Of a stretch of 64,000 nt of DNA, positions 26,785 to 61,220 are shown piece by piece. Within the stretch, counting starts at the first letter, position 1; every line of letters begins with the position of its first letter. The notes beneath the pieces are model-generated. The model was not told the origin of the DNA, made no database searches, and saw only the letters and a program-made list of their open reading frames with translations. Source of the stretch: Dichomitus squalens LYAD-421 SS1. Taxonomy: Eukaryota > Basidiomycota > Agaricomycetes > Polyporales > Polyporaceae. The stretch covers positions 17,254-81,253 of the forward strand of contig NW_006766884.1 in the NCBI RefSeq assembly GCF_000275845.1. The letters run 5' to 3'. A program made the translations under genes and the position numbers.

Positions 26785-28621
26785 ATGTCTCTAGATACCC
26801 AGGTCAATATGCATGTTGATCCGGGAGACGTGTTCGGTTCTGACGGTCCCGATTGTTCCTTCCACAGAAACTCCCAGCGTTTCCACCTCTATCTACTGTT
26901 GAACACATCATTCTCAAGGAAAAGCAAGGGAACTGCGTTCCAGTATACGTCGAGCTCCCTGGCGACTTCCTCACACCATGCGTCGCGTACTTGCGGATAG
27001 CGAAGGACTCGAAGTATAGCTTTCTTTTGGAGTCGGTAGTTGCGGGGGAGAACCTTGCGCGATATAGCTTCGTCGGAGCGGGTGCGTCCTCCATTCAATC
27101 CATCTACCACCCTTTCCACCCCGCACTCACGCACAATTGCGTATCAAGACCCGTTCAAAATCATCCGGGTGGGACCCAATGAAGAGACGACTGGGGACCC
27201 GTTGGTCGCGCTGCAGAAGGAGCTGGGGATGTACAAGTATGTAAAGCTCCCCGAAGTCCCCACATTCACAGGCGGCGCGATCGGATATGTCGGGTACGAT
27301 TCTATCATGCATTTCGAGTCCAAAACCGCGCGTGTGGTAGAAGACCCCCTCCGTATTCCCGAGGCGATCTTCATGCTTGTCGACACCCTTCTCATCTACG
27401 ACCACCTCTACCAAAGCCTGAAGGTCGTCTCGCACGTTTTTTGTCCTGGGGATGCTGGCCAAGTCAACTTGTCGTTCATCTATCAGACCGCGGTCTCGAA
27501 GGCGAGGAGGCTGGCCAAGCTCATCATGAGCACCACGACACCAGAGGTGTACCAGCAGCCAATCGTACTAGGAAACGAGGCCGTCTCGAACGTCGGAAAG
27601 GCGGGATACGAGGGCTTTGTGACGAAGCTGAAGGAGCATATTGTGGCGGGAGACATCATCCAGGCAGTACCATCGCAACGACTGGCGCGTCCGACCAACC
27701 TCCATCCGTTCAACGCATACAGGCATCTACGGCGCATCAACCCGAGTCCATACATGTTCTACCTCGATTGTGGTCACATACAAATTGTCGGAGCAAGTCC
27801 GGAAACGCTGTGCAAGGTAGAGAAGAACAAGGTGTACAACCATGCTATTGCTGGTACCATTCGAAGAGGGCAGACACTTGAAGGTGCGCGTGCCTTGTGT
27901 CCGTCGCCTTCTGTCATACCCTAATTGACCGTTATTCCAGAGGACGAGAAGTTAGGTGCAGAGCTTCTCGCGTCGGAGAAGGACAGGGCCGAGCACATCA
28001 TGCTGGTTGACCTCGCACGGAACGATGTGAACCGCGTGTGCAAGCCGGAGACGGTGCACGTCGACCATCTGCTCAAGCTTGAGAAGTTCAGCCATGTCAT
28101 TCACTTGACTTCGCAAGTCTCTGGCGTCCTGAGGGCCGGTAAGACTAGGTACGCCTTTTCAGGCAAGACAGCTTCTGTCGCCCCTTGTATCTGACGATTA
28201 CGGTATAGGTTCGACGCGTTCCGATCCATCTTCCCCGCAGGCACGGTGTCTGGAGCTCCGAAGATTAAGGCCATTGAGCTCATCTACGAGCTTGAGAAGC
28301 AGCGCCGAGGCGTTTATGCCGGCGCAGTGGGACGCTTCGACTTCGCCGACGACGAGATGGACACTTGCATCGCCATTCGTACCATGGTATTCAAGGATGG
28401 CATCGCGTATCTACAAGCTGGAGGAGGTATTGTTTACGACAGCGTGGAAGAGGACGAGTACGTGGAGACATTGAACAAGCTCAAGGGTAACATGAGAGCG
28501 CTCGATGTAGCGGAACGTACGTTGTCTCAACTTACCTCCTTTGATGGAGAACGTGCTGACCACACGGGACCTCGCAGAGTACTGGCACGATATCCAAAAT
28601 GCGAAGGGTGCGCCGGCATAA
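26785..28621 (+). CDS. TRP2: Anthranilate synthase component I
   Basis: First step of tryptophan synthesis: chorismate to anthranilate, using ammonia from the TRP3 glutaminase. Exons 26785-26802, 26868-27081, 27149-27883, 27941-28148, 28209-28516 and 28578-28621 sum to 1527 nt, or 508 residues. The feedback-inhibition motif LLES is in [13 protein letters not shown]. The chorismate-binding domain shows [36 protein letters not shown] and [15 protein letters not shown]. The first exon codes only six residues. This left copy is the complete gene; its last two and a half exons reappear after the N gap as an assembly duplicate. The stop codon is 40 bp from the MRP4 stop. Confidence 0.96.
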
Positions 28622-29007
28622 TGATGTATTAAAGAACATATTGTAGTGTACGAGTGGCGATCTATGCTGAGTGTGGCTCCCTGTGCCGTGGCCCCTTCTT
28701 GGCTGCCACAAGTGCAGCCTTTGCCTGCTCCTCCTCGTAGAGCGCGACACCTTCTCGACCCGCTACGCTGAGAAGTCCCGCGATGAGCTCTGCTGTCCGT
28801 GTGCTCTCGTCGTTGGCCGGAATGGGGTACATGACAACCCGAGGGTCGACGTTCGAGTCGACGATACCGATGGTAGGTACATGCTCGAGAGCGCACTCTC
28901 GTATGGCGTGGATGTTGGGGATGGGATTGAGGAAGATGACGAGGTCGGGGACGACCTGCTCATCCTTCGCAACGTCGGGGCCGAACATGTGGACCCTATT
29001 CGTCAGC
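28026..29007. repeat. Left copy of a 982-bp assembly duplication
   Basis: Bases 28026-29007 recur at 29095-30076 with a constant offset of 1069. I compared the lines and found no difference. The copies abut both sides of the N run. This is the signature of two contigs whose overlapping ends were scaffolded instead of merged. Confidence 0.95.
28662..29007 (-). CDS. MRP4: MRP4 3' part, truncated duplicate at contig end
   Basis: C-terminal part of mitochondrial uS2m (NRVHMFGPDVAKDEQ through GPRHREPHSA), cut by the N gap at its upstream side. Identical to the same segment of the complete gene at 29731-30701. It should be removed when the overlap is collapsed; it is not a second gene. Confidence 0.9.
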
Positions 29008-29094: not shown

Positions 29095-29690
29095 TGTGAA
29101 CCGCGTGTGCAAGCCGGAGACGGTGCACGTCGACCATCTGCTCAAGCTTGAGAAGTTCAGCCATGTCATTCACTTGACTTCGCAAGTCTCTGGCGTCCTG
29201 AGGGCCGGTAAGACTAGGTACGCCTTTTCAGGCAAGACAGCTTCTGTCGCCCCTTGTATCTGACGATTACGGTATAGGTTCGACGCGTTCCGATCCATCT
29301 TCCCCGCAGGCACGGTGTCTGGAGCTCCGAAGATTAAGGCCATTGAGCTCATCTACGAGCTTGAGAAGCAGCGCCGAGGCGTTTATGCCGGCGCAGTGGG
29401 ACGCTTCGACTTCGCCGACGACGAGATGGACACTTGCATCGCCATTCGTACCATGGTATTCAAGGATGGCATCGCGTATCTACAAGCTGGAGGAGGTATT
29501 GTTTACGACAGCGTGGAAGAGGACGAGTACGTGGAGACATTGAACAAGCTCAAGGGTAACATGAGAGCGCTCGATGTAGCGGAACGTACGTTGTCTCAAC
29601 TTACCTCCTTTGATGGAGAACGTGCTGACCACACGGGACCTCGCAGAGTACTGGCACGATATCCAAAATGCGAAGGGTGCGCCGGCATAA
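29095..29690 (+). CDS. TRP2: TRP2 3' part, truncated duplicate at contig start
   Basis: Copies the end of exon 4 and exons 5-6 of TRP2, including GTVSGAPK and the TAA stop, with the same introns. It lacks the first 60% of the gene because the contig starts here. Treat as an artefact. Confidence 0.9.
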
Positions 29691-30076
29691 TGATGTATTA
29701 AAGAACATATTGTAGTGTACGAGTGGCGATCTATGCTGAGTGTGGCTCCCTGTGCCGTGGCCCCTTCTTGGCTGCCACAAGTGCAGCCTTTGCCTGCTCC
29801 TCCTCGTAGAGCGCGACACCTTCTCGACCCGCTACGCTGAGAAGTCCCGCGATGAGCTCTGCTGTCCGTGTGCTCTCGTCGTTGGCCGGAATGGGGTACA
29901 TGACAACCCGAGGGTCGACGTTCGAGTCGACGATACCGATGGTAGGTACATGCTCGAGAGCGCACTCTCGTATGGCGTGGATGTTGGGGATGGGATTGAG
30001 GAAGATGACGAGGTCGGGGACGACCTGCTCATCCTTCGCAACGTCGGGGCCGAACATGTGGACCCTATTCGTCAGC
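29095..30076. repeat. Right copy of the 982-bp assembly duplication
   Basis: Mate of 28026-29007. It starts inside a TRP2 exon ([13 protein letters not shown]) and runs into MRP4. Confidence 0.95.
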
Positions 30077-31674: not shown

Positions 31675-31822
31675 TGCCATTGCCTACGGCCTTGACCGCC
31701 AGTCAAGTGCGGAGAAGAACGTCCTCATTTTCGATCTTGGTGGAGGAACTTTCGATGTGTCACTCCTGAACATCACTGGCGGTGTCTTTGCCGTCAAGGC
31801 GACTGCCGGTGACACTCACTTG

Positions 31823-31854
<32 letters not shown>

Positions 31855-32971
31855 CTTCTTCAAGAAGGAGTTCCAGAAGAAGACCAGCCTCGATATCTCT
31901 GGCGATGCCCGTGCCCTCCGCCGTCTCCGCTCTGCTTGCGAGCGTGCCAAGCGCACTCTGTCCAGCGTTGCTCAGACCACCGTCGAAGTCGACTCTCTCT
32001 TCCAGGGCGAGGACTTCTCGGCGAACATCACCCGTGCTCGTTTCGAGGAGATCAACGCTCCGCTCTTCAAGTCCACTCTTGACCCCGTTGAGCGTGTGCT
32101 GAAGGATGCGAAGATGCCCCGGGAGAAGGTCGACGACATCGTCCTTGTCGGTGGCTCTACCCGTATTCCCAAAATCCAGTCGCTCGTCTCCGAGTACTTC
32201 GGTGGCCGTCAGCTCAACAAGTCCATCAACCCCGATGAGGCTGTGGCCTACGGTGCAGCTGTTCAGGCCGCTGTTCTCACCGGCCAGACCTCGGACAAGA
32301 CCGCCGACCTCCTCCTTCTCGACGTCGCTCCCCTCTCCCTCGGTGTCGCCATGCAGGGCGACATCTTCGGTGTCGTCGTCCCCCGTAACACGCCCATCCC
32401 CACCACCAAGTCTCGTGTCTTCACCACTGTTGAGGACAACCAGACTACCGTCACCTTCCCCGTTTACGAGGGTGAGCGCACGCAGTGTCGCGACAACCGT
32501 CTGCTCGGCGAATTCGAGCTCACAGGCATTCCCCCCATGCCCCGTGGCCAGGCTGAGCTGCACACCACTTTCGAGCTCGACGCGAACGGTCTCCTCAAGG
32601 TTACCGCCCAGGACCGTGCGTCTGGCCGCAAAGCACAGATCTCGATCCAGAACTCTGTCGGCCGTCTGTCGTCGGTGGAGATCGACCAGATGATCAAGGA
32701 CGCAGAGCACTACAAGCAGGCGGACAAGGACTTCAGCGCACGGCACGAGGCCAAGGCAGACCTCGAGAGCTACATCCACCAGGTGGAGAACACGATCACG
32801 AGCCCCGAGATTGGCATGAAGATCAAGCGTCATGCCAAGTCGCAGGTCGAGGCGGAGCTCGCGCGCGCGCTCGAGAAGCTGGAGATCGAGGACTCGACGG
32901 CGGACGAGCTCCGCAAGGCGCAGCTGGGCATCAAGCGTGCGCTGCAAAAGGCGACCGCGGGCATGCGGTAG
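30906..32971 (+). CDS. SSB1: Ribosome-associated Hsp70 of the Ssb class
   Basis: Cytosolic Hsp70 that binds nascent chains at the ribosome with the RAC (Zuo1/Ssz1) co-chaperone. Exons 30906-30958, 31018-31067, 31118-31256, 31317-31514 and 31573-32971 sum to 1839 nt, or 612 residues. Hsp70 signatures are [28 protein letters not shown] and [15 protein letters not shown]. Ssb-type features are the VEIIANDQGNRTTPS region, [10 protein letters not shown], and a C-terminus ending [17 protein letters not shown] with no EEVD, unlike the Ssa class. There is no ER or mitochondrial signal. The early introns are crowded at the 5' end, as in other basidiomycete HSP70 genes. Confidence 0.95.
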
Positions 32972-33323
32972 TGCGGGACAGTTTACGACCGGGCATGATT
33001 CGCAATTCTGTCTGTAGATATGGCGCCGTGCGGGCATATGTGTGTGTAGGATGTCTCCTATGATGTATGTGTACAACTCGCTGCCTCATGCATGCATACT
33101 GCTTTCGTCTGGCTCCCCGTCGCTGTCTGTTTGCCTTTGTCTCTCTTCGCTTCTCGTGCATCGCTGCCCCTGTCCTTTCTTCGATCGCATATACGTACGC
33201 AAGAATGAAGGTTTCTTTGTAAAATCAGAATACCCGTTGCGCTGCTCTGATGCGACGACAAGACAAGACAAGGCGAAAGCTACTATTGCTACAGACAACA
33301 CGCAAGAGAAGAGTTGTGAAGAG
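32972..33323. other. Tail-to-tail spacer SSB/RFC2
   Basis: 352 bp. T/C-rich 3' UTR-like DNA; no gene recognised. Confidence 0.5.
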
Positions 33324-46549: not shown

Positions 46550-47621
46550 TTTGATCGTGCGTTATAGGCTCCGTGCGCGCTGTTGACGAAGTGTATGTGC
46601 TGTATCACTAGTCGTGTGTCAATGCTCTGCCCCATCCTCCGGATTCTACTCGTCCGTACGTTCCGCATCTGGTGACCGATCGTCATATTGTCCTTGTTTT
46701 CAAGAGCCTTGAGTTGGCTTAGACCTCACAGGCCCAGTTGCATAGACACTACCAAAGCCTGACGCGATATCAATGGAATCTCACAGTACACGAGAAGTAC
46801 AATACACGCGGAACCGATCAAAGCTTGTACGCACGTAGTTGTGGATGATAACGGCAGGCCGGTCCTGCGGATCGTGGCACGAAGCCTTGCGGACCGCGTC
46901 GATCGACAGTCGACAGCAGCGCGCTCGGGTCCTTTCTATCCCTCGTTGCCTGCTTCGCGACTTGACATATCGGTAGAATTTCTTTCTACCGGTCTTGCTC
47001 GCTGCTTCCGACCGCATTGATGTGCGTCAGCGCCGAATGGTATGGGCGTTACCTCGATCTCAGAAGGGCGAGCATTGAACCTTATTCACAGGCTGGGTTC
47101 TGGCTCGTCAAAGCAGAGATGTAAGGGAAGGTGGGACCGGCACTACACGATGATATCACTAGTTGCGTGCACCGATCCGGGCGAAGTCCACAAGCTTGCA
47201 GTGTCGCCGCCCCCATCACTGTTGACCCAGTGCGCACCGTTGGACCAGCTGCCCGATCACACAAGGCCGACATTCTGACTGTTATCTCAACAGGGAAGTT
47301 GACTACTCCCAGCTCATCCTGGGCGTATCGGGTCTCCTGGTCCCTGTCCGAATCCGCGTGTCACTGAGGATGTCAGATGGCAGGTCTACGAGATCGTGGG
47401 TCAGTATTCACGTTGCGCAGGTCCAGCCCCTTCCCGTGATGTCGATTGCATCAGGCAAGCGTCAAGGTGCGTTTGAGACGCTCCGACTGGATGTCATTGA
47501 ATATATAGCTCATCCTGCCTCGTCCCCTTGCAGCCTATCCACGTCCTTCCTGACCTTGGCTGGTTGTCCGTGGAACGCTCCGGCACCGTGTCGTGGTCCA
47601 TCACTTCTCCAGCACTCCGCG
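46550..47621. other. Intergenic 1.1 kb, TMA20 to first Zn-cluster gene
   Basis: No gene recognised. A TATATA box at 47502-47507 serves the next gene. Confidence 0.5.
47502..47507 (+). promoter_or_regulatory. TATA box of Zn-cluster gene 1
   Basis: TATATA 114 bp upstream of the start codon at 47622. Confidence 0.4.
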
Positions 47622-48205
47622 ATGTCTTCCGAACAATCCAAGCCGCAACCCTGCAATAGCTGCCGTTGGCGCAAAGGTACGCGTCTTTTCCCCACCCCAC
47701 GGTGTCTAACGCGCCTTTCGCGCTGAGAGTCGCACAACTTCATACCCAGTCAAGTGCCTGCAGAAAGAGGGCGCGGAGCGTTGTCATGAGTGTCACAAGC
47801 GAGGCGAGGCCTGCGAGCGCGGCAGCAGATCCGCAGTGGCTAACAATTCGCCTTGCGAGGAATGGTGAGCGTCCGCCGGTCCTTCGCGTGGTCGCCAGGT
47901 GCAACCGTTGCTGACACGGTGTCGGACGCGGTACCAGCAAACGCGCTCATGTGGCATGCGACATGCCAAGGTCAGGTCCGTGTGCCCGTTGCGGGTACTT
48001 GGGCCAGACGTGTACCCGTGCGGTGGCTGGTTGTGGTGAGTGTCGACCGTGTTCCATTGTCCGTTAGTGTCACTGACGACAGTGGCGCCCCATCCCAGGC
48101 AGTCCGGCTGCCAATCCGACGGGCGGGGCAGCACCTTCTATCTCGTCCGATGATCCGCTGTCGTCGAGGAAGCCCTTCTTCGACGTCGTGCTGAACCAAG
48201 GCTGA
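47622..48205 (+). CDS. Small tandem double Zn(II)2Cys6 protein, copy 1
   Basis: Predicted DNA-binding protein of only 124 residues with two fungal binuclear zinc clusters in a row. Exons 47622-47676, 47750-47864, 47938-48035 and 48099-48205 sum to 375 nt. Cluster 1 uses Cys11, 14, 21, 30, 33, 40 (CX2CX6CX8CX2CX6C; CNSCRWRKVKC at its start). Cluster 2 uses Cys54, 57, 64, 72, 75, 82 (CX2CX6CX7CX2CX6C; CEECKRAHVAC). The basic loop between the second and third Cys is typical of DNA contact. A 13-residue linker joins the clusters. The tail ends PFFDVVLNQG, like copy 3. There is no fungal_trans (MHR) domain or coiled coil. Intron 3 must use the second of two AGs (48097-48098) to reach that tail. 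Confidence 0.8.
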
Positions 48206-50485
48206 CGCCCGCAGCGCACAATCACCCACGCCGTTACGTGTTTTCGGGGGGTCTGACCTGGAGGCGATAGTCCGGGACTCCGAGAAGAATAGCTCCACAA
48301 AGGCTGTTTGATATTGCCGCGCACCCTATCCATTCAGGACTACAGTACATTAATTACGAGCCTTCTCTGTTGTCACCCAATTAATCTACACGAGGTGTTC
48401 GAACATTGCCTGACAGAAGAGTGCAGTACGGCAGCGTACGTATCAAATGTGTGATTAGCACGATAGGGCCGTGCCTTCATTTGCGCCCGCGGGTTTGCTT
48501 CTCCATCTATTAGGGCGTATGAGAGAAGACCATCGCGAAGTTGCAAAGTGGACTTTCTTGACGCTCCGTGGTGAGCGTCCAATAGGATGCACGAAAGCGG
48601 CTTCCGTCCCTGAGGCTCTCCGATATGTCCGCAGCCCACGGCCGAGGGCTCGTCTGGGCGGAGTTTCGTTGGTACATAGCATGAGAGCGGGGTCACTGCT
48701 CTGCCGGCGGTACACGGGAACCAGAGGTGCGGGTCAGGTCCCGGACCACTCGTTCTGTGGGCGCTGGCGGGCGGCGACTGCAAGCAAGTGGCGCCCAATC
48801 CACACCCGCCGCGTGCCTAGTTGGCTTCCGCCTATGCAACACCCTTCCGTGAAGCTATCGCATTGCTGTCTTTGGTCTCAACTCGAGGAGACGTTCCCAG
48901 CGACCAGCATCGCGTAAGCTACAGAGGCTTCAACTCCGCCTTTGACAACAGCACGGCTGCACCGTTTCTTCGTCCAGTTCCGGGGCAGGGGACGGGCTGT
49001 CGGGACCAACGCGATCTCTGGTTGTCCTGCTCCCTTGATGGCCCTAGCTAGCTTCATCGCGCAAAGGGAGTAACGTTCGGCGCACGTGGTCCGGGTATAG
49101 TGCGTCTCGTTGCTGTCATCGTCGCTTCCGATCTTCTATCGCTAAGGCTTCTCACGCAGCCTGAAGCCGGGGTACGTGCCAACGTGGAGACTCAAGGTCT
49201 GTCTTACGTTTCGCAAGCCACTCTTATTCGTGCACGCAGCCTCACGAGCTTCTGCGGCGCGCCATCGTGCGTACTCTGAAACATTGAAATTTACCGCAAC
49301 CTGTCTTCTCGCATCGCCCGCGCAGGGCCCTTGCTGCCTCGCGACGCGGGGTATTGCTTGGAATAGCAACAGCCACTGCTTCATCTGGAGAGGAGAGGGG
49401 GAACGGAGCGTCTGGGATTGCCGCTGCACCATGTATGTCAAGCTAGTCCGCTGCTGACGTCTTTGACTGATCTTCTGCCAATAGCCTCGGAACAATGCAA
49501 AAACGACGGCAGGTACAGGCGCTCATCGTGGGCTATCGGAGGACAATGGACTTGAGCACCACGCAATTGTTGACCTTACATAGGTTCACCGTTCCGACAC
49601 GCTAGACATTCCTCTTTCAGATACACCGCGTCGTCGAACGCTTCGAAACCCTTACCTGCGGGAGAAGTGTCGAGTGCGCAGCAAACTCATTGAACTCTCT
49701 CGGTTCACCGTCGGGTACTGCTATTGCTTGTACGCCGCACAGACGTAATTGCTTATGCACACTTGCTATGGTAGCCGGTATGTCCTCATAACCGCCTTTG
49801 GTTATCCTTGTCGTTCCAAACTGACGGACCGCGCCATGCGCACGGCCTAGAACAGTTGGCTGTGTCGAGCCGAGCCGTCGATGCAGACCACGCTCGGGGT
49901 CAAGGGCGAACATGTCGCGTGTGAGACGGGCGCGCCGCAAGGCATGAATGCGGCGCCGTAGCTTTCCGCAATGCGACTAGTGCCGCGCGGCGGAAATCGC
50001 CGCCGTCCTCTTCTCTCCTGACCCCCGAATGTTGCTGAGCTGCTAGCCATTCCTACTTTAGTCACGGACTCAATCGGCGGACGTAGGGGATGCGCTTTCA
50101 CTGAGTCTCTCCTAATTAATTGGTCTGTGGTGAAAACAGGCATGTCCTGCAGAATTTCGCATGCGGTATCCGGACGCGAAGCTGCATGAACACGGCGGAG
50201 GATGCTGACGGAGCCCGTAGACGCGGGCATGCCTAGGACAGCTGCACAGGGTTCCCACCTTTATCATGTATTTTCCCACCCACAGAGGCGTCATCTCACT
50301 GACCCTCGTCCTGGGAATTTGGGAATTTGGAAAGGATGGGGTTCGACGCAGGTTCTGCCGTGATGCAACGTTTTTCGACCGTCCCGCTGCTTTCCCACTT
50401 TTGCGACTAGCTATATAGGCATGGCTCCGTGTCCCGCTTTCGTCATGCTCTCGCCGTCCCTTCTCTCCCTCCTGTCTTGGTCGAG
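48206..50485. other. Intergenic 2.3 kb between Zn-cluster genes 1 and 2
   Basis: No gene recognised. The last 240 bp is the promoter of copy 2: three TTCCCAC heptamers (50252-50258, 50273-50279, 50392-50398), a doubled gggaattt at about 50313-50328 and a TATA box. Confidence 0.5.
50412..50417 (+). promoter_or_regulatory. TATA box of Zn-cluster gene 2
   Basis: TATATA 68 bp upstream of the start codon at 50486. Confidence 0.45.
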
Positions 50486-51369
50486 ATGACCAGGTCCCCC
50501 GAGCCGCCGAAGAAGATTGCCTGTACCAACTGCAGCCGCAAGAAGAGTGAGCCCGCCTTCGCCACATGGCCCTATGCTTTCACCCTGAGCATACCCTTCT
50601 CTGTTTGCGTCGGTGTCTAGCTCGATGCGAGAACTCCGCTGACGGTCGGCCCTGCGCGACATGCACGCAAAAACGGCTCGACTGCAGATACCCAGACCCA
50701 GATGCCCCGGGCTCGGGTGGTGCGCAGCGCAGGACCTCATGCGACTCTTGGTACGTTCCTCCTCGACGACTCCGCTGCTTCCTATGCCGATTCCAGCCCA
50801 CTCTACGCAACCCCTCGTTGGCAGTCACAAGGAGAAGGTGCGCTGCCGGCGCGCCAAGGACGGCGAGGACGACACGAGGTGCATGAACTGTCGCGAGAAG
50901 AACATCCAATGTGTCTTCCCCAATGCTGGAGAGCACGGTCAGTGAGGACCTGTTGACCTGTCGACTAGATCCTGATGCCCCCTCTGCACTCGTTGGCCGT
51001 CTCCCCGGCACATAGAGGAGCTTCCTGTTGCAGACTCCGAGCAACCCGTAGCGGGGCCGTCTCACAGCCAGGCTGCTTCATCCGTCCATCGTGGTCAGTG
51101 TTCATTGCCCGTGTTCCTTCTCTCGTCGACGACTCTGAGCTGCCCCGCACCCTCCTTCAGCATCTGCCGAGTTGACCGGCGACTCACAGCGCCCAGCGCT
51201 GACGGTGGACCCGACTGCCGCAGCCGGTGCCAGTACTTCCGCACCGGTGACGCCAAACACGCGTCCTAACAGCCCCGGCCGCAACAATTGGAGGGAGGTG
51301 TGTTTGGCACCGTCTCCCGAACGTGAGGACTTCGAGGAGAGTTTCGCGGAGGCGTACTTGAACCAGTAA
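50486..51369 (+). CDS. Small tandem double Zn(II)2Cys6 protein, copy 2
   Basis: 190-residue relative of copy 1. Exons 50486-50546, 50621-50750, 50825-50937, 51034-51093 and 51161-51369 sum to 573 nt. Cluster 1 uses Cys13, 16, 23, 32, 35, 42 (starts CTNCSRKKTRC; CX2CX6CX8CX2CX6C). Cluster 2 uses Cys61, 64, 71, 83, 86, 93 (starts CDSCHKEKVRC; X11 between the third and fourth Cys). An 18-residue Pro/Gly/Asp linker separates them. The C-terminal half is Ser/Pro/Ala-rich, probably disordered, and ends FEESFAEAYLNQ, weakly like the VLN tails of copies 1 and 3. One extra intron relative to copies 1 and 3. Both clusters have the Lys/Arg-rich loop expected for binding CGG-type half-sites, but no target is known. 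Confidence 0.8.
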
Positions 51370-52406
51370 ACCATATTGCTTCCAATATTTGTCTTCTAGT
51401 CTTCACCATGCATAATGACTCCCTAATGTTCGTTGTCCCTCTAAACCCCCACTCCTCTTTGGACATTTGTAGCCTACTATAGTACCTTTGTTTGCTCCTG
51501 TATCCCTGTCGATCGTCCGTTGAGCAGAACCTTCGGGGAATCCCCAAATTCAACCTCCGAAAGGAGGGCTGCCAGGGTTCCCCATAGCACAGCAGGCTGC
51601 TGACCAAGATTGAACCATGTCCCTTTCGGAGCGGCGTACTGATGTCGAGTCGCCGAAGTATTATTTCATGGCCGCTCGCTCTCAAGTTGCCTTGATCGAT
51701 GGTGGGCGCGATTGATATCGCTTCTACAATTGCTCGTACCTCCGCCGCGGTGTCATCGCAGAAACCTCCGCGACGCACCAACTGCTGATATATGGACAAT
51801 CGATTGTTGGGGGATGTGGTGTCATAGTCCATTCGCACGAATCCTGGTTCGTGTGCAGATCGATATCTCCGGTTCCACCTTGAATGCCCTATCAGGATGG
51901 GGAAGATCCCCACACCACCAAGCATTTCCCTGACATGAGTTACACTTAGTAGTCGCCGGAGAAGAGTGGCGGAAGGAACAGAAAGGTTCAATTTAGCAAT
52001 ACGGCGACTGCTGCTTGCTATGCGGGGCGCGCTCGGAGGAAGCGCGGGCGACCTCTCAAGATCTCAAGCCCGACGACGCGGGTAGTAGACGGGGCAGAGG
52101 GTATAGTTGTTCGTTGCCAACCAATGCGCCGACACCAAGGCGAAACTCTGAGCCGATCTCATGATACAGAGTTTCGCGTCGCTACATAGACCACCGCTGG
52201 TACCAGGAAGCCAGTGTGAACGAGCACGCTGGCTCCCAGAAGAGGTCATCACGATGGGGTTCTAAGATACCAGTCATACGAGGGATAGCGCTACGATAGA
52301 TGTCACCCAGCACACAACTCTTGAGCCCGCGGTCCTGAGCGTACGGGACAGCGGACGGTACCAGAGATTGAAGCCTCCCTCGTTCCTGCGAATTCAACCG
52401 TCCCTC

Positions 52407-52428
52407 AAACGGGGGATACCCCCGGTTT
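52407..52428. repeat. GC-rich hairpin, with a diverged second copy
   Basis: aaacgggggatacccccggttt can fold on itself with one bulge. A related aaacgggggatgtccctcgg occurs at about 52466-52485, so the unit is also a short direct repeat. Confidence 0.6.
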
Positions 52429-54919
52429 GTCATCCTGCCTGCTCTGTAGCGCCAGAACCTCCTCCAAACGGGGGATGTCCCTCGGATTAGGGATCCGTCC
52501 TATCCGTATACATTCAACGTACCGTACTGCACGCTGACACGCAACCGTCCTGGACTCCGGCGTTAGCAAATGGCCTGTATAAGGTCAGCACAAGATTCAT
52601 CTCCGTGGTCCCAAGAAGCCTGAGATCTTACCCCAAATCTGAGAAGCGCGAAATGCGAGCAGGCGGCTGACGTACTATGGCCAATGTGGCATATTTCCGT
52701 GGGCCTCTGGCACTGGGCTGCAGGAATCATGTCAGTCGGGCTGCAGCGCCGCCCCATGCGTCAGCGGTTTAGTTGGCTTCTAAAGATAGCCTACAGTTCG
52801 TTCTCCAATCCAAGCGCGGCGGCAAGCGCATCCAGTGACCTGGTGAATTCGATTCAAGCGAGCGTCGGTGTAGGTGGGAATAACGGCTGCCTATATCGGA
52901 ACGATATGGTTTAGCGCGCATCCCAATCAAACTTAAGGGTATATGGGAGATGCGCTCTGAATTGATTCAAGACGAATACGTGTATAGTATGTCGCGCCGT
53001 CGCAAGCCGAGGTGCTCCGTGTTGCAGCAGCGGATGGCCGAGCGGAAAGAAGTTCTGCGAACGAGACGACTCGGCCAAGCCTCCTGCTCCTTGCCGACCG
53101 ACGGCGTTTAAGCCACGCTAGCTACCATCTAAGCCGCAGGGAGCGATCAAACGTTGGACTCTGCCTCGACGCCGTCTCACCCTCTTCTCTACTGTGCTTA
53201 GCCGAGTCCCAATACTGTCGTCGATTTCCCGCCGAAGGCGTACCCTTTACGATGAAACAACATTTTGCGCCCGCACAGACTGCACGCCCGAAGTCATCGT
53301 GAATGATATCCTGTAGGACTGGCAAACCTCCACTGAATGGAACATTGGCTGTACGAGTCTATACGCCAGTATCCACGAAAAACGGCCTCTGGAGACACAC
53401 CCGTGAAGGTTCATGGTTGCTGGCACGACATGTATGCCAAGTGGTACGTCACAATAATCAGAACAACCGGACCCAAGCCCAAGACTTGATCAGATGTCTT
53501 GCGTCCTCCCATTGAGTTGAATCGCCAACGCCCTGGCTCGCAGCCCACAATGGACACGTCCATCCGTTTCCCGCAGCAAGGACAATTTGTCGTCCCACAT
53601 TCCGATCTGCTGTCTTCTTAACGATCCCGCGTGTGCTTCGTATTTGCCTCCCACGTACGTCTCTGCATTTACCGACATCAGCGCCTGAGTCGTAATTGAC
53701 AGCGAGCGGCTTACGCGTTTTGCTTTTATTCTGTCCCAGCCCCTTGGGCTCCTGCCCGACGGAACCCAATGTCCTCTGCCCAGATACTTGGCTGACGACA
53801 TAAGATCCGGTCACTAACTTCTTACAAGCAACATGTTTCCTGCCGGGCTACCTTTACTCCTCCCGAGGGCAAAGAAGCCGAGCTCCCGGCATGCGCATGC
53901 CCGAGAGCTGGACATAGAATATATGCGTAAGTTGCGCAAGGGTGTCCGAGATGACGTACCCGAGAGAAGATTGGGGGAGAAGCTCGCTGCGGGCAGAAGT
54001 TGATTAATCACCAGCTGGTAGAATCTCCGTCGGGTCGCGCTCAGTCTGGTACGTTGTAATTTCGTTCTGTTGCGACTACCGAGCCATAAAGGTCGCCATG
54101 TAACTAGGACAGGCAATAGCAATAGGTCCGCGTTGTGCCGATCCAATGGTCATCAAGGCGCTCCTGCGTATAGTATGTTTCCCGGAGTACATGAGGACCG
54201 CGAGACCAACGACGGTGGCGCGTGCCAGGTCCTTGGGAATGCAGTGAAGCTTCCATGCAACCGCTCGATCATGCGGAAGCGAGCGTGTAGGATGACGCAC
54301 GGCAAGTTGCGGGACGACTTTCCCCAGTGGATCCCTGCTTTGGCTACTGCCGGTGGCGCCGATCTACGAGTCGTCGTCAACGTCGCCTCGAACTGTTCCC
54401 GGTGAGGTGCCAGGGAACAGCTCGAGGCGACATCGCTGAGTGCATGTACGGGGCAGTCCTAATGCGGTGGTTCACGCCGGTTTTCCGTCTCGTGGCCGCA
54501 ACGGCGAAGGCGGGCCACTGTGAGATGATGCCATTGGGGGATGATTAAACTCTATCCCTTTCAGCCGTCTGTTCCGCTGTCTAGCAGATAGGACGAACCT
54601 CCAAATCCACGCGCAGTGATGAATGGGATGAGCTTCCGGAGCGCTCAAGGTGACCACGCTTCTCTTCGTTCGGATGTCCAGCGGAAACCCGATAAGCTAT
54701 GAGATCAGGATTACTGCCCTTCAGGTGGGACCTTCCAGTCAGTGACCCGCTTTCAGGTCCAGCGCTTTCGTTTGCTGGATTCGATACTAACACTGATTTT
54801 GTCAGGAGCCTAGCTGGACTATCCACCTTAATGTCTTAATGCACTCTCATCGCGCACCAGTCCGGCGACAAAGAGTCGCGCGCAGACTCTGTACCATTTC
54901 GTCGATGTGGGAGGTACAT

Positions 54920-54927
54920 ATTTAAAC
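54920..54927 (+). promoter_or_regulatory. TATA-like element of Zn-cluster gene 3
   Basis: TATTTAAA 101 bp upstream of the start codon at 55029, followed by CT-rich leader DNA. Confidence 0.4.
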
Positions 54928-55028
54928 CTGTCTCAGCTATGGTCCCTGCACTTCGTCGCCTCCCTCCTCTCCTCTCGACCAAGGCCTAACGCGCTTACTA
55001 TCACTACCCTTTCTACCATCTGAACGTC

Positions 55029-55600
55029 ATGTCTGGAAGTGGACGCAAGTTACGCGCGTGTAGGAGCTGCTCACAGCGCAAAGGTACGTCGTCGCTTTGA
55101 CCCTCGTCATTGAGCCATTTCGCTCATGCTGCCTCAACTTCGTGGATCCGTAGTGAAGTGCTTGCCGTCAGAGGGGGACCCGCGTTGCCGGGAATGCGTG
55201 AAACGCAGCAAACACTGCGAACGCCCCGAAATCACTGCGAACCATAATCCCTGTGATAACTGGTAAGCGCTCAACTTCTGCAGACAGACCATCGGCGCTG
55301 CGGCATGTACTAACAGCAAGGTCCATGCAGCAAGCGTTCTCACGTAGCCTGCGAGTGGTCTGGGGCTGGACCTTGTACGTTTTGCTCAAGCGCACGTAGC
55401 GCAGCCTCGTGCTCGCTCGCCTCCGAGAACTCGGGGGGTTCTGGTGCGTATGCGATAACCGGCCGGCTTGTAACTCGCGGGTTTAACAGATCACGCCCAC
55501 GACGATGCCAGATCGGACGCCCTCATTCGCCCTCGATCCGATGCGACCGTCATCGTCCCCGCAGACGCATTACTTCGACATCGTTCTAAACAAGCATTAA
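55029..55600 (+). CDS. Small tandem double Zn(II)2Cys6 protein, copy 3
   Basis: 121-residue protein, closest to copy 1. Exons 55029-55083, 55154-55262, 55331-55443 and 55512-55600 sum to 366 nt. The first exon is 55 nt in both copies 1 and 3. Cluster 1 uses Cys11, 14, 21, 30, 33, 40 (starts CRSCSQRKVKC), the same positions as copy 1. Cluster 2 uses Cys52, 55, 62, 70, 73, 82 (starts CDNCKRSHVAC); its last spacer is X8 instead of X6, so folding of this cluster is less certain. An 11-residue linker (ERPEITANHNP) resembles that of copy 1. The tail reads HYFDIVLNKH, matching the DVVLNQG end of copy 1. The last intron again has to use a second downstream AG (55510-55511). Confidence 0.78.
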
Positions 55601-57821
55601 GTGCTCGGGCGGTCGCTGCGCGTCATCCAGGATGTACGTAACAGCTTCACTTGGTCCAATCGAGTCGCAGACTACGAAAAGGACGGAGAGACATGGTGAA
55701 CACGTTGGGGGCGCTGGCGACATAGCATAAGATGTTTTGTGTAGTTGAAGTTGGTATTGGTGCCTTTGTTGGCACTTGTTCCCTATAGCTATAGCTAGCG
55801 TTGTCTCAAGGTGATTTTCCAACGTATCATTATGCTCCACACAGCGCGGCCAACAGGAGGCTTCATTCCGCTAGCTGGGTACATCAAGAAGACGCCGGCC
55901 ATGCAGCGTAGCCGGATACTCTGAAATGGGTGAAGGAGACAGACAGAACGGGGCCCGCTAAGCCTCGATCACACTGGCAACCGAGATGAAAGACGGGCTT
56001 CATGTTGAGAGAGGAGCGGCGTCGTTGGCTGAGCGCAACGAGGGCGACGCGAGCTCGAGCTATTGTGGGAGAATAGCCACTGTGCTCTTGGGAGAATCGC
56101 AGTAAGATTGAGTGTGCGACAAAGATCTGTGGGTACCACGTGGGTCAGATCCGTCGATCGATGTGGCGACCAACCAACTTCGGCGCCCACCCACGCCCCT
56201 GCGCTCCGCGCTGTCCCCCGACGTCCAGTCCACAAACCTGATACTTCTCGGCTCGGGCCTCCTCGTTTATCCTTGTCATCTGCGTATGCGACGGGACGTC
56301 TACGCGTAAGTAGGGCGGCAGCTACCATGAAACCTCGATTCGAGGCCTGAAGGCATCAAGGACGTGCCTCACGACTAGGCAAGCGTCGCGGGTTCGCCTC
56401 AACGCGTTCCCGATACACGTGCTCGGGAATAGTGCGTTCGGTTGCCACTTCCCTGTTTGTGGGGAAGACAATGAACACGCGGTAGGGCGTGGCAACCGGC
56501 GCTGAACGAACCCGACACTTTTGAAGCGGCCCGTCGGACTTGAACGCAGTACTCTCAGGACGACCAGATAGATGTTCATCACATTGTACGCCCCAGGACA
56601 CTCATGAATTGCTCCCAACAGACTTCTCAAGACCCTGCAGACGTTCGCGAAGACGGAGACCCGTAAAGAAGGAGAAGATCGTGCCTCAGAAAGGCAGCGT
56701 CATCTATAAACTGCGGTATTCAGGGATGAGGAACGCCAAAATCGTGCCGCTGCTCCCCTAAGGGCCGCAGAGGTGCGTCCAAATTAGAAAGGGACTAGCT
56801 CGTTGGAGTCCCTCTCGAAGCCTGAGTCGACTCCATGATGGAATTCTCAACACGTCGGACATCTCGTGCTCGAGACGCCGATGAGACGAGACGTACATAC
56901 CATACAGAGGCTTTCTGCGCCCCGGACCAAGCAGATCTGGCCACAATGGCATCTTTTATTGCCCATTTGTCGCATAGCCTCCGAACCCTTTTGTCGCCTG
57001 GCGTTCGGCATCGGTCTATTGCATTTCGGGCATACAGACACAAATTGCCAAAGGTGAAATCTTCCGTCGGGCCATTCTCGAGAACTCACCGAAACAAACG
57101 GACGATGGCTGTATAATCGCCGTCCTGGAATGCATGTTTGCTATTTTGGGCTTCTTGATGGCATTTCCCGTAGCCGACGGCGAGGCGCCAAGTGGGGTTC
57201 TCTCGTCCTGTTCATAGCTTTCAGGCTATACACCTTGTACGCTATTGTAGGCAGTGGAGTTGGCTTTGGCAGCTGGAAAATATGCGCGATTCCAGCCGAC
57301 ACTGGCATACTTGGTATAAGATATCAATTGCCCGCTGTACTGGACCCGATGCTGCGGATAGCGCCCTCATCCTTTACTTTCCTGAATCTCTCATTACGCA
57401 CGCACCTCCGTCTTCCCTCTTCGGACCTAACATGACTCGCCCAGCGGACCCTGTGCATTTTCCCTTAGCATTCATAGGCAGAAGACCCGATTCTCCGCCG
57501 GCGCGCTGGCCAGGGTCCCAGCCTCATCTCTGCACTGACGACACATTCGGTTCGAGAACGCGCGGCCTCGTCAATGAGGGACTCCGGCCTATAGGGACGC
57601 GAGCTGATTTTGTAGGTGTTCCCACATATGCTTGATCATTGGCTCCCGGAAGGCCCAAGCATGACGGCGTCCTTGGGAAAATACGAGTGCCTAGTGGGGG
57701 GCGGTCCTAGGGACGAAGTGGCGGATCTTTAACGTTTGTTTCCCCCTTGCCTCAGATATCCACTGACTATTTATTCCAAGCGGACACCCAGGTTCCTCTC
57801 GCTCCTCCCCTCGCCTTCCCC
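55601..57821. other. Intergenic 2.2 kb between Zn-cluster genes 3 and 4
   Basis: No gene recognised. A Cys-rich minus-strand frame (56847-57089) has several CxxC pairs but no known arrangement. TTCCCAC occurs at 57619-57625 and a TATTTATT element at 57768-57775. Confidence 0.5.
57768..57775 (+). promoter_or_regulatory. TATA-like element of Zn-cluster gene 4
   Basis: TATTTATT 46 bp upstream of the start codon at 57822, followed by CT-rich leader DNA. Confidence 0.35.
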
Positions 57822-58716
57822 ATGAAGATGAAGAACATCTTCAAGAAGAAGCGGACGCGGTCCCCCCATCCTGCGTGCACCCCCTGCTCTGACAAGAAAG
57901 GTGCGTCGCCCAACTATCTATCGTCTCTTGTTGCCATTGACTCAACGCTTGCCCACGTGTCGGTGCCTCTGCACCTTGAAGTCAAGTGCAATCCCATCAA
58001 CGGCGTCGGACTGCCTTGCCAGGCATGCATCCAGCGCAACGGGATGTGCGAGTGGCCACTGGGGTCAAGTTCTACCAGGCATTGCGGCCCGGATGGGCAC
58101 AAGCGTGGCGTTCGTTCCTGCCAGAACTGGTGGGCAACACAGTCCCTCACCATAAAACCAGCATACTGACGTCTCGTTATGGAGCCGCGCGAGTAAAATG
58201 CGCTGTGAGCCTGCGGGCCATCCCAGTGGTGCTTGCCGTAGATGTAGGCGGGCCAACCTCGACTGCTCGTTCGCCGGATGTTACTTAGGTCAGTGCTCCG
58301 TTCACGCACCCATTCGTTGGCCAATGACTCTTCTACATCCACACCCAACCCCTCCTCTAATCTACGCCGCCCCCATATGCTCCAGCAGGAGAGGCCTCAC
58401 CCTCGAACGATGGGCAGTCTGTCGCCGGGCCGTCTAACCAACGCATGGCCAACGATCAGGGTGAGCCTGTTACGCAACAAGTCAAGCTACGCGCCCATCC
58501 TCAATCGACCTTGTTCGTTGCGTCCTAGGCACATACTCCCCTGGCATCCAGCACCCCGTTGCAGGGGGTTCTCAGTCTTCATGGTTGACGGTGGATACCG
58601 GCGTCGCCAATGTCGGCGGGAGCGTGAGTTCTGCCGAAGCGACGCCCACGTCTGGCCCTAGCAGCCCCAGCTCGTATTGGCTTACCGTCATGGGGGCTGA
58701 GGACTCCGACTCCTAG
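57822..58716 (+). CDS. Small tandem double Zn(II)2Cys6 protein, copy 4
   Basis: 197-residue member of the local family. Exons 57822-57900, 57982-58129, 58185-58288, 58386-58460 and 58529-58716 sum to 594 nt. The N-terminus is strongly basic (KNIFKKKRTR), a plausible nuclear localisation signal. Cluster 1 uses Cys19, 22, 29, 39, 42, 49 (starts CTPCSDKKVKC; X9 centre). Cluster 2 uses Cys73, 76, 83, 93, 96, 103 (starts CQNCRASKMRC; X9 centre). The 23-residue linker contains one extra Cys61. The C-terminal half is Ser/Gly/Thr-rich with two copies of a WLTV motif (SSWLTVD and YWLTVMG) and ends EDSDS. The intron/exon plan matches copy 2. Confidence 0.78.
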
Positions 58717-59327
58717 TCAACCGCGACGCAGCCTAACGCTATCGGCGACTGCTTGCTATGCCGGTTCTGTATCGTATCTGCCTTGTCCCGTCTTCTTGAT
58801 GAAAAGCCTAACTTAGATACCTCGCTACTACTAAGTCCCACTCTGCACCAACCCCCGCTCTTATTAGCATGACTGTAACCTCTATTGTCCTATCTCGATC
58901 TGTTTGTCCAAGATGTGCCCTAGCACGCTGTAGCTCTTGCCTTATACTGATGTGGATGCCCCATGCGCGCAGATATGAACCCAGCGACGATCGTTCCGTC
59001 GATCTACCTGGGGGGAACAATAGGTCATCCCGAAGCGTGCATGAGCCCTCAAGCTGATCCCTTGCCTGACGCCTTTACATGGCTGACAAATCTTGAGCTC
59101 GTTGTTATTGGCACCGCTTTACACGATGGAGCCAGAGCAGTACTAGGCGAATCTGATAAGTCCTAGACTGTGGAGGCCCAATCGCGCGCCGGCGCCTTGA
59201 GATTGTGATGCGCTGTGCGGCCTTGGCCATCGCGTCGCGCAAACCCAAGGCACGGCAGGGAACCGGATGTATTCAACCCTGGAAAATGCAGAAGAAAGGG
59301 GACGCAATAGTTTACCTTCCTCGCCAC

Positions 59328-59992
59328 TACAGTCATACACGGGTCCTCGGGACAGTCAAGTGTTGTCGCTCATCCCAAACCATTCCCTACCTGTGCAGCC
59401 CATATCGGACAATGCCATTATGTATGGTACACAACAAGGCACTGCACGCCTAAGTTTCATGGTAATCCAACTATGTGTGAGAGGGATCGGGGACAATCAT
59501 CCCAAATTTCTCTCATCGCACGTCCCTCGGTCCTCGGGACAGCGCTTAATTCCCTCGTATGGAACGAAATTGCTGTTGCCGAGGATAGCCGAACCCGGAT
59601 ATGGTATGTGGACATCTAAACGCCAAATTGCTTGAGCGCAAGAACTACCCTTCCACACTGTGTCGATGACTATCAGGGCTCAGTGTCAAAATCTCACCAT
59701 ATAAAGTTGCTGAGAGAAGGAGATATATGTCGCCTTGTTGTACACCAGAAGTGGGGCACGCCCATGGGCACGGTGAGTATAGATTTGGGCGGGAACCAGT
59801 CCCAGATTTGGTTTTCGTGTAAATCTTGTACAGAAACTGGGCTGGTGACTTCACTTCTGGGTCGCCTCTGATGAAATTTGAGGAGAGGTGAGCTGTAAGA
59901 AGTCTATATAGATATATACAAAAACCTGAGGCAGTAGGATAGAGGGAGGGTCAGAAACCGCGCAGTGTCCCGAGGACCCGTGTATGACTGTA
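59328..59992. mobile_element. MITE-like unit with 26-bp terminal inverted repeats
   Basis: tacagtcatacacgggtcct (start of the left end, 59328-59353) is repeated as an exact reverse complement at 59967-59992. The 665-bp unit codes for nothing obvious. A third partial copy of the inner end (ggtcctcgggacag) lies at 59529-59542. No target-site duplication was established. Confidence 0.5.
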
Positions 59993-60396
59993 TCGGACAA
60001 GTTTTCGGGCTGATAAGTGGTACACTACCTCACCAGTTTCCCACGGGTATTGACATGGTGAAATCAATGCCCATTCTCAGAGCTTTTCGACCGTCGAAAA
60101 GTGGTCGTAGCATTTACCATCATGGCAACTTGCGACTCATGTCGTGCAACGCCAACGCCTTTTGGCCATCCGAGCAAAACGACTACTTGCCTTCTAGGGC
60201 ATTTCCCCCGGTGATATATGGCCTGAGAGATCCAATGATGTATAGAATAGGCAGAAAGTCGCCATAATGGTAAACAGCACGACCACTTCTCGATGGTCGG
60301 AAAGCGTTTGCAACAGGCATTGTTTTCGCCACGCCAGAAGTCATGGGAAATTCTTCCGGTAGTAATCGCTGTAACGGCGCAAAAAGTTGCCCAATA
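59991..60396. mobile_element. Foldback (long inverted repeat) element
   Basis: Bases 59991-60133 pair with 60253-60396 in reverse complement over about 144 bp without gaps, at roughly 70% identity by eye, around a spacer of about 119 bp. The near-palindrome ttttcgaccgtcgaaaa lies inside the left arm and a similar ttttcgaggatcgaaaa at about 60437. Non-coding; a decayed MITE or hairpin element is the likeliest reading. Confidence 0.55.
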
Positions 60397-61220
60397 ATGG
60401 CGAGGAGGGGGAACTATTGCGTCCCCTTCTCACCGCCTTTTCGAGGATCGAAAACAACTGGTTCCCTGCTCCATTCTCGCGGTCGGCTCCCGCGCGCTAA
60501 ACACCGCAGCGAGGTACAAACATTCGCACGAACTGGGCATGTATGAGCCTGATCGCGCGGCGTAGCGCATGATTGACTGTGCGCACACGGCGCACACAAG
60601 ATCTCGGCTGCCCAGCAGAAGACCGCGGTGGTTGGGTGGGTGCCTGGCGTTCAGCGTCGCCCGATGGCTGCTGCTGGCAATGCGCAATCCTCGTGAGATG
60701 CAGATTGTGGCACAACACGTAAGGCGGGAGGGGGCGCGAGCAGAAACACTGCGGGTAGCGCCAGGGCGCGAGAGAAGGAAGAACGAAAATTTTGTCACGA
60801 GTGACGTGGGGCGGGTCTTGGTAGCGCACAGAAGAAGTCTGTCCGACAACGGACCGCGAAGCTCGCGAGCGCGCCGTCGACGTGTAGACGCACAATGCCC
60901 TCGAATGCGTAGTTGGCTTGTCGTTCAGAGACCGCGAGCAAATGTGAGTCTCGGCGAGGCCATCAGGACCGGGAGATAGTGAGGTGTGTCGACCTCCAGC
61001 TGCTGTACCAGGCTCGGGTCGTCTGTGAGAAGGCTGGTCAGCTGGCAATAATCTTCCTACAGAACTGCCAGTCATCCCGGGCAGCTCTGTTCGCCGATGG
61101 CAACGTCTACAACGCGTAGGTTTGACACAGTCCGAGTCGGCAGTCGCCTGACGAAGTGTCTGCAGACGTCTCGGCGACCATAAATAACGAACGCCTGACG
61201 ACGTGACCTACAAATATTGT

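Follow-up and report, generated by a model that had tools for sequence, protein, structure and literature searches.

Zn2Cys6 factors of the Gal4 type (PF00172), which often also carry PF04082, form a very large class of fungal regulators whose specificity is usually explained by the spacing of two subunits. AlcR and Pho7 have one cluster per protein, and the proteins described here differ from both in having two. AlcR is described as reading DNA without dimerising, and the same has been proposed for Pho7, whose asymmetric site suggested that it might bind as a monomer like AlcR (PMC5559640, in excerpt). Chains with two clusters are on record in ascomycetes. The predicted proteins CCG_02279 and CCM_00582 each have two C6 zinc domains and stand among DUF3468 proteins (PF11951) (PMC6471507, in excerpt). 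PMC10305253, in excerpt, also mentions a factor from Alternaria that has two Zn2Cys6 domains. Dual-specificity fungal transcription factors (e.g., C2H2 plus a zinc cluster) likewise hold more than one DNA-binding domain per chain, but their classes join domains of different types, and the available portion of PMC5415576 names no class with two zinc clusters. Proteins with two C6 domains are already known from ascomycetes; very short two-cluster proteins arranged as a two-gene cassette in polypores were not found among the matches listed in a search of mostly non-subscription literature that covered titles and the starts of abstracts. None of the terms sought occurs in PMC3998117, and the passages of PMC10141177 that came up deal with something other than two-cluster proteins.

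We describe such an arrangement in Dichomitus squalens, a wood-decay fungus for which gene disruption by CRISPR/Cas9 has been published (PMC12997857, in excerpt). The window, meaning the whole 64,000-base stretch that was analysed (C2:17254-81253 in a genome of 40.3 Mb and 116 contigs), holds four plus-strand genes, A, B, C, and D, within 11 kb. Their spliced products have 124, 190, 121, and 197 residues. A-type and B-type genes alternate along the DNA, beginning with the A-type gene A; the tree, the number of introns, the tail motif, and cluster 2 all distinguish the two types.

47502..47507, plus strand: putative TATA-like box 120 bases before the start codon of gene A (plain pattern match with no chance control)
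47622..48205, plus strand: gene A, A-type, 124 aa; exons 47622-47676, 47750-47864, 47938-48035, 48099-48205; clusters at residues 11-40 and 54-82; tail FFDVVLNQG
50486..51369, plus strand: gene B, B-type, 190 aa; exons 50486-50546, 50621-50750, 50825-50937, 51034-51093, 51161-51369; clusters at residues 13-42 and 61-93; tail with LTVDPTA and NWREVCLAPSP
55029..55600, plus strand: gene C, A-type, 121 aa; exons 55029-55083, 55154-55262, 55331-55443, 55512-55600; clusters at residues 11-40 and 52-82; tail YFDIVLNKH
57822..58716, plus strand: gene D, B-type, 197 aa; exons 57822-57900, 57982-58129, 58185-58288, 58386-58460, 58529-58716; clusters at residues 19-49 and 73-103; tail YWLTVMGAEDSDS
47622..51369, plus strand: cassette 1, A-type then B-type with 2280 bases between; same pair at consecutive Ganoderma adspersum locus tags
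55029..58716, plus strand: cassette 2, A-type then B-type with 2221 bases between; types from tree, intron number, and cluster 2

The exon chains were modelled by hand from the window, with stop codons confirmed and included in the coordinates. Since splice sites were picked with the cluster pattern in mind, the hand models alone are no independent proof. All 14 introns are GT..AG and 55-97 bases long, with the second intron of gene D ending in GAG, a rare acceptor. In all four genes, intron 1 (phase 1) lies directly after the position-8 lysine of cluster 1, intron 2 (phase 2) interrupts the second cysteine codon of cluster 2, and intron 3 (phase 1) lies behind that cluster; a fourth intron, of phase 1, is present in B and D and absent from A and C. 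Among public D. squalens models, P0004 (BD309DRAFT_962856) equals gene A over 124 of 124 residues, whereas P0003 (BD309DRAFT_962865) and P0001 (BD311DRAFT_654870) differ by a single substitution each from genes C (120/121 residues) and D (196/197 residues). P0002 equals gene B over 101 residues, which include both clusters, and then takes another splice and loses the tail; the tail of the hand model recurs in the Ganoderma B-type proteins P0005 and P0009. In P0008, from G. leucocontextum, exon 1 of the A-type is present but read in another frame, which hides cluster 1 and indicates that this model starts wrongly and retains an intron. At least these two public models of the family, P0002 and P0008, look misspliced.

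The original prediction, that each of four plus-strand genes encodes two complete Zn2Cys6 clusters in a chain of 121-197 residues, is confirmed by these models and, over both clusters, by the public models of all four genes. A HMMER search for PF00172, from which two hits each were expected, found two stretches in 4/4 proteins, with whole-protein E values of 1.1e-8, 7.8e-14, 2.4e-8, and 1.7e-11 (A to D) and scores of 34.4-51.9 bits against a Pfam cut-off of 21. By motif scan, C-x2-C-x6-C-x(7-11)-C-x2-C-x(6-8)-C occurs twice in every protein, giving 12 cluster cysteines, and 11-23 residues separate the two clusters. Ganoderma proteins P0005, P0006, P0008, and P0009 also have two PF00172 stretches, P0006 and P0009 with full first exons. 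GSI_13564 of G. sinense, a B-type protein, has no cluster 1 in its annotated form, and with 12.3 bits its cluster 2 stays under the Pfam cut-off.

The genes resemble Gal4-type factors in cluster pattern, in the recognition lysine of cluster 1, and possibly in a helix pair per cluster, predicted with low confidence, and they differ in holding two clusters within 121-197 residues and in lacking PF04082. The latter family was absent from all four proteins (hmmscan, E up to 1), and none of the at least 28 PF04082 matches listed for the genome falls in the window. The same hmmscan gave PF00172 only, so that PF11951 is absent as well, which sets A to D apart from CCG_02279 and CCM_00582 as these appear in the excerpted source. 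Hence the predicted lack of a regulatory domain stands as far as PF04082 is concerned, whereas short conserved motifs in the tails make "no regulatory part" too strong a description.

Two gene types, rather than one freshly born family as had been proposed, are apparent in trees of eight sequences (including the partial P0008), which are short and unrooted and were built from full-length and core alignments. A split with support of 100 (full length) and 99 (core) places A, C, and two Ganoderma proteins on one side and B, D, and two others from Ganoderma on the other. Gene A and its Ganoderma relatives form a group separate from C (95 and 90), as do gene B and its own relatives with respect to D (98 and 97). 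If the tree is rooted on the type split, C and D would have branched off before Dichomitus and Ganoderma parted; alternatively, C and D may change faster. No relative of C or D was found in any named Ganoderma; P0012 has a D-type tail. Further homologue searches added P0009-P0012 with the B-type alignment and nothing new with the A-type alignment.

In G. adspersum, the locus tags of the two types follow directly on each other (V8D89_007294 and V8D89_007295), and both list longest contig 471472. In G. leucocontextum, both list one contig of 184015, which was taken as the same contig, so that linkage there is apparent. Because the two types are linked in Ganoderma too, the A-type and B-type genes are, on sequence comparison, an old two-gene cassette with two copies in D. 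squalens. The clusters stay intact across the distance between the two genera, and no DNA similarity between cassettes 1 and 2 was detected at E up to 0.01. Recent local birth was rejected on the presence of both types in Ganoderma and this lack of similarity, and with it the proposal of a local family; origin by tandem duplication was counted as supported.

Genome searches for further members used proteins B, C, P0006, P0009, and P0001 as queries, gene A being represented by its relative P0006, and returned the locus of A to D and weak matches elsewhere, with no further member. The best weak match (C1:1447263-1447415, E 4.6e-4) contains one cluster only by motif scan and was set aside. An exon-by-exon PF00172 search listed at least 28 matches in the genome but not A to D, since introns interrupt their clusters; it could overlook other two-cluster genes divided like these. 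Motif scanning around the 28 listed matches found a second cluster nearby only at C7:1122190-1122927. There, the minus strand appears to carry a single longer gene with two Zn2Cys6 clusters, spaced by about 650 bases and each with an intron after its first CxxC part, a build unlike that of A to D. Within the window, no fifth copy emerged when every six-frame segment was searched with a profile: the hits were exons of A to D, and the best other segments had E values of 0.15 (core profile) and 1.4 (full profile).

Structure prediction is consistent with the expected fold at low confidence. The model of gene A, made from three aligned sequences, has a mean pLDDT of 57, with cluster blocks at about 60-77 and helices at residues 12-17, 31-36, 55-60, and 73-78, two per cluster. 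That of gene D, from four sequences, has a mean pLDDT of 49, and the expected helix pair is clear only in cluster 2. Neither low-confidence model shows a helix of four or more residues after cluster 2, the side on which Gal4-type factors carry their coiled-coil dimerisation helix. Foldseek gave 23 matches for A and 13 for D, all taken as Zn2Cys6, with a best E value of 0.14 and none below 0.001; the assignment was made mostly by titles, with 1cld counted by its name LAC9 and 6gys_B presumed to be a Zn2Cys6 protein. AlcR and Pho7 are among these matches to low-confidence models, and 2alc (AlcR) ranks first for D. The matches agree with a Zn2Cys6 fold and add little weight. When the sequence of gene B was compared with solved structures, the top three of eight matches were EED chains aligned to its tail (E 0.024-0.028), which were taken as low-complexity matches; Zn2Cys6 chains rank below them (E 0.22-0.68).

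The residues that would face DNA differ between the clusters. In Gal4, Lys18, at position 8 of CxxCxxxxxxC, bonds to CGG guanines (PMC5559640, in excerpt). Cluster 1 has lysine at this position in all seven family members in which it is readable. In cluster 2, position 8 is histidine in 4/4 A-type proteins and lysine or arginine in 4/4 B-type proteins. Position 10 of A-type cluster 2 is alanine in all four, while cluster 1 keeps K-x-K/R; B-type cluster 2 has basic residues at positions 8 and 10 in all four. Among nine other PF00172 matches in the genome with an unsplit cluster, position 8 is lysine or arginine in seven and neither in two. Pho7, with asparagine at the lysine position, still requires the CGG triplet (PMC5559640, in excerpt), so that a missing lysine is no proof of lost binding.

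Beyond the clusters, A-type proteins carry [FY]FD[VI]VLN at the C terminus or within two residues of it in 4/4 cases (P0003, P0004, P0006, and P0008). B-type tails carry LTVDPTA and NW[KR]EVCLAPSP in P0005, P0007, P0009, P0010, P0011, and gene B, and not in P0002, which has a different end; gene D shares its C-terminal tail with P0012. The tails are short and probably disordered, and their conserved motifs may be contacts with a co-regulator.

Upstream of the genes, AT-rich boxes similar to that of gene A lie at -74 (B), -110 (C), and -54 (D), again as plain pattern matches with no chance control. No 8- to 10-mer is common to at least three of the four 400-base upstream stretches; CGG pairs are present in them, likewise with no chance control. 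Of 76 open frames of at least 150 aa, 19, plus one shorter frame, were searched against Pfam. Matches upstream comprise anthranilate synthase, Hsp70, CAF-1 subunit A, exportin CRM1, and a PUA domain, and SRR1 was matched downstream; these matched neighbours are housekeeping genes and do not point to any pathway. A minus-strand frame at 31763-33085 runs antisense to the Hsp70 frame and reaches 227 bits against PF10712 ("NAD-GH"), which we take to be a family built on antisense Hsp70 frames. Elsewhere in the window, 28026-29007 and 29095-30076 form an exact direct repeat (982 bases, 100% identical, 87 bases between), the first 190 bases of which recur at C35:51776-51965 with 100% identity; a recent duplication, a mobile element, or an assembly artefact could account for it. 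Downstream of gene D, 59255-59329 and 60395-60469 form an inverted repeat of 75 bases (79% identical); a small mobile element may have left these as its ends or as copies.

Judged by sequence, A to D are most likely minimal DNA-binding regulators. We lean, by a little, toward reading the locus as an old cassette of two genes for minimal zinc-cluster regulators, each chain having two clusters in place of a dimer. Cluster 1 would read a CGG-like triplet through its standard recognition lysine, and cluster 2, basic in the B-type and with histidine in the A-type, would contact a second, different half-site or steady the first contact. One chain with two clusters could thereby do the usual job of a dimer, and binding of paired half-sites without dimerising is a reasonable inference. 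The tail would bind a co-regulator, and A-type and B-type proteins would act in one circuit. Counted in favor of this reading were the two clusters in 4/4 proteins, the shared intron phases 1-2-1, the position-8 pattern, the conserved tails, and the linkage in Ganoderma, along with the predicted helices of gene A, the Foldseek matches, and, by analogy, Gal4 Lys18 and the monomer precedent of Pho7 and AlcR. Against it stand A-type cluster 2, which has neither the recognition lysine nor a basic residue at position 10, the low confidence of both structural models, Foldseek matches none of which falls below E 0.001, and the absence of a common promoter motif. The chances that both clusters touch DNA appear about even. 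Linkage of the two types is no proof of joint action, and it is unlikely that A-type and B-type proteins sit together on one site. Similarly doubtful is a bolder version in which they are obligate partners, placing four clusters from two chains on one extended site, with the A-type histidine cluster setting a new half-site specificity.

Other explanations account for parts of these data. Cluster 1 alone may read DNA, with cluster 2, above all in its A-type histidine form, kept in its zinc fold as a module for protein binding or A-B dimerisation. The histidine and alanine of A-type cluster 2, set against the K-x-K/R of cluster 1, and the intactness of the clusters between Dichomitus and Ganoderma would fit this arrangement, but the basic B-type cluster 2 and the example of Pho7 speak against it, and we consider it rather unlikely. 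A role as mini-repressors that occupy CGG half-sites and exclude full-length zinc-cluster factors is suggested by the missing PF04082 domain and the Gal4-type cluster 1. However, a bare competitor needs neither an altered second cluster nor a linked second gene, and conserved tails suggest a positive partner contact; the tails and the altered A-type cluster weigh mildly against such competition, which seems quite improbable. Finally, the joined models could be wrong, exon skipping or read-on giving one cluster per protein or a longer body. Hand-picked splice sites, the departure of P0002 from gene B after residue 101, and the deviating first exon of P0008 could be read in this way, but the public models cross both clusters in all four genes, the Ganoderma proteins have the same layout, the P0008 deviation points to a fault in that model, and no PF04082 match lies within the window. 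We regard such an error as very improbable, and A to D as almost certainly real two-cluster genes.

In sum, on sequence grounds the family of A to D, read as an old cassette with two clusters per chain, looks like a little-known group of minimal gene regulators. Such genes are easily missed, being short and intron-rich, apparently misspliced in at least two public models, and unlisted by an exon-by-exon PF00172 search. The invariant histidine of A-type cluster 2, in place of the lysine that reads CGG, means that its specificity may differ. A natural short chain with two clusters lets the linker be tested against the dimer interface as the setter of half-site spacing. If an obligate A-B partnership were true, zinc-cluster regulation would here have moved from coiled-coil dimers to tandem clusters and a linked partner gene.
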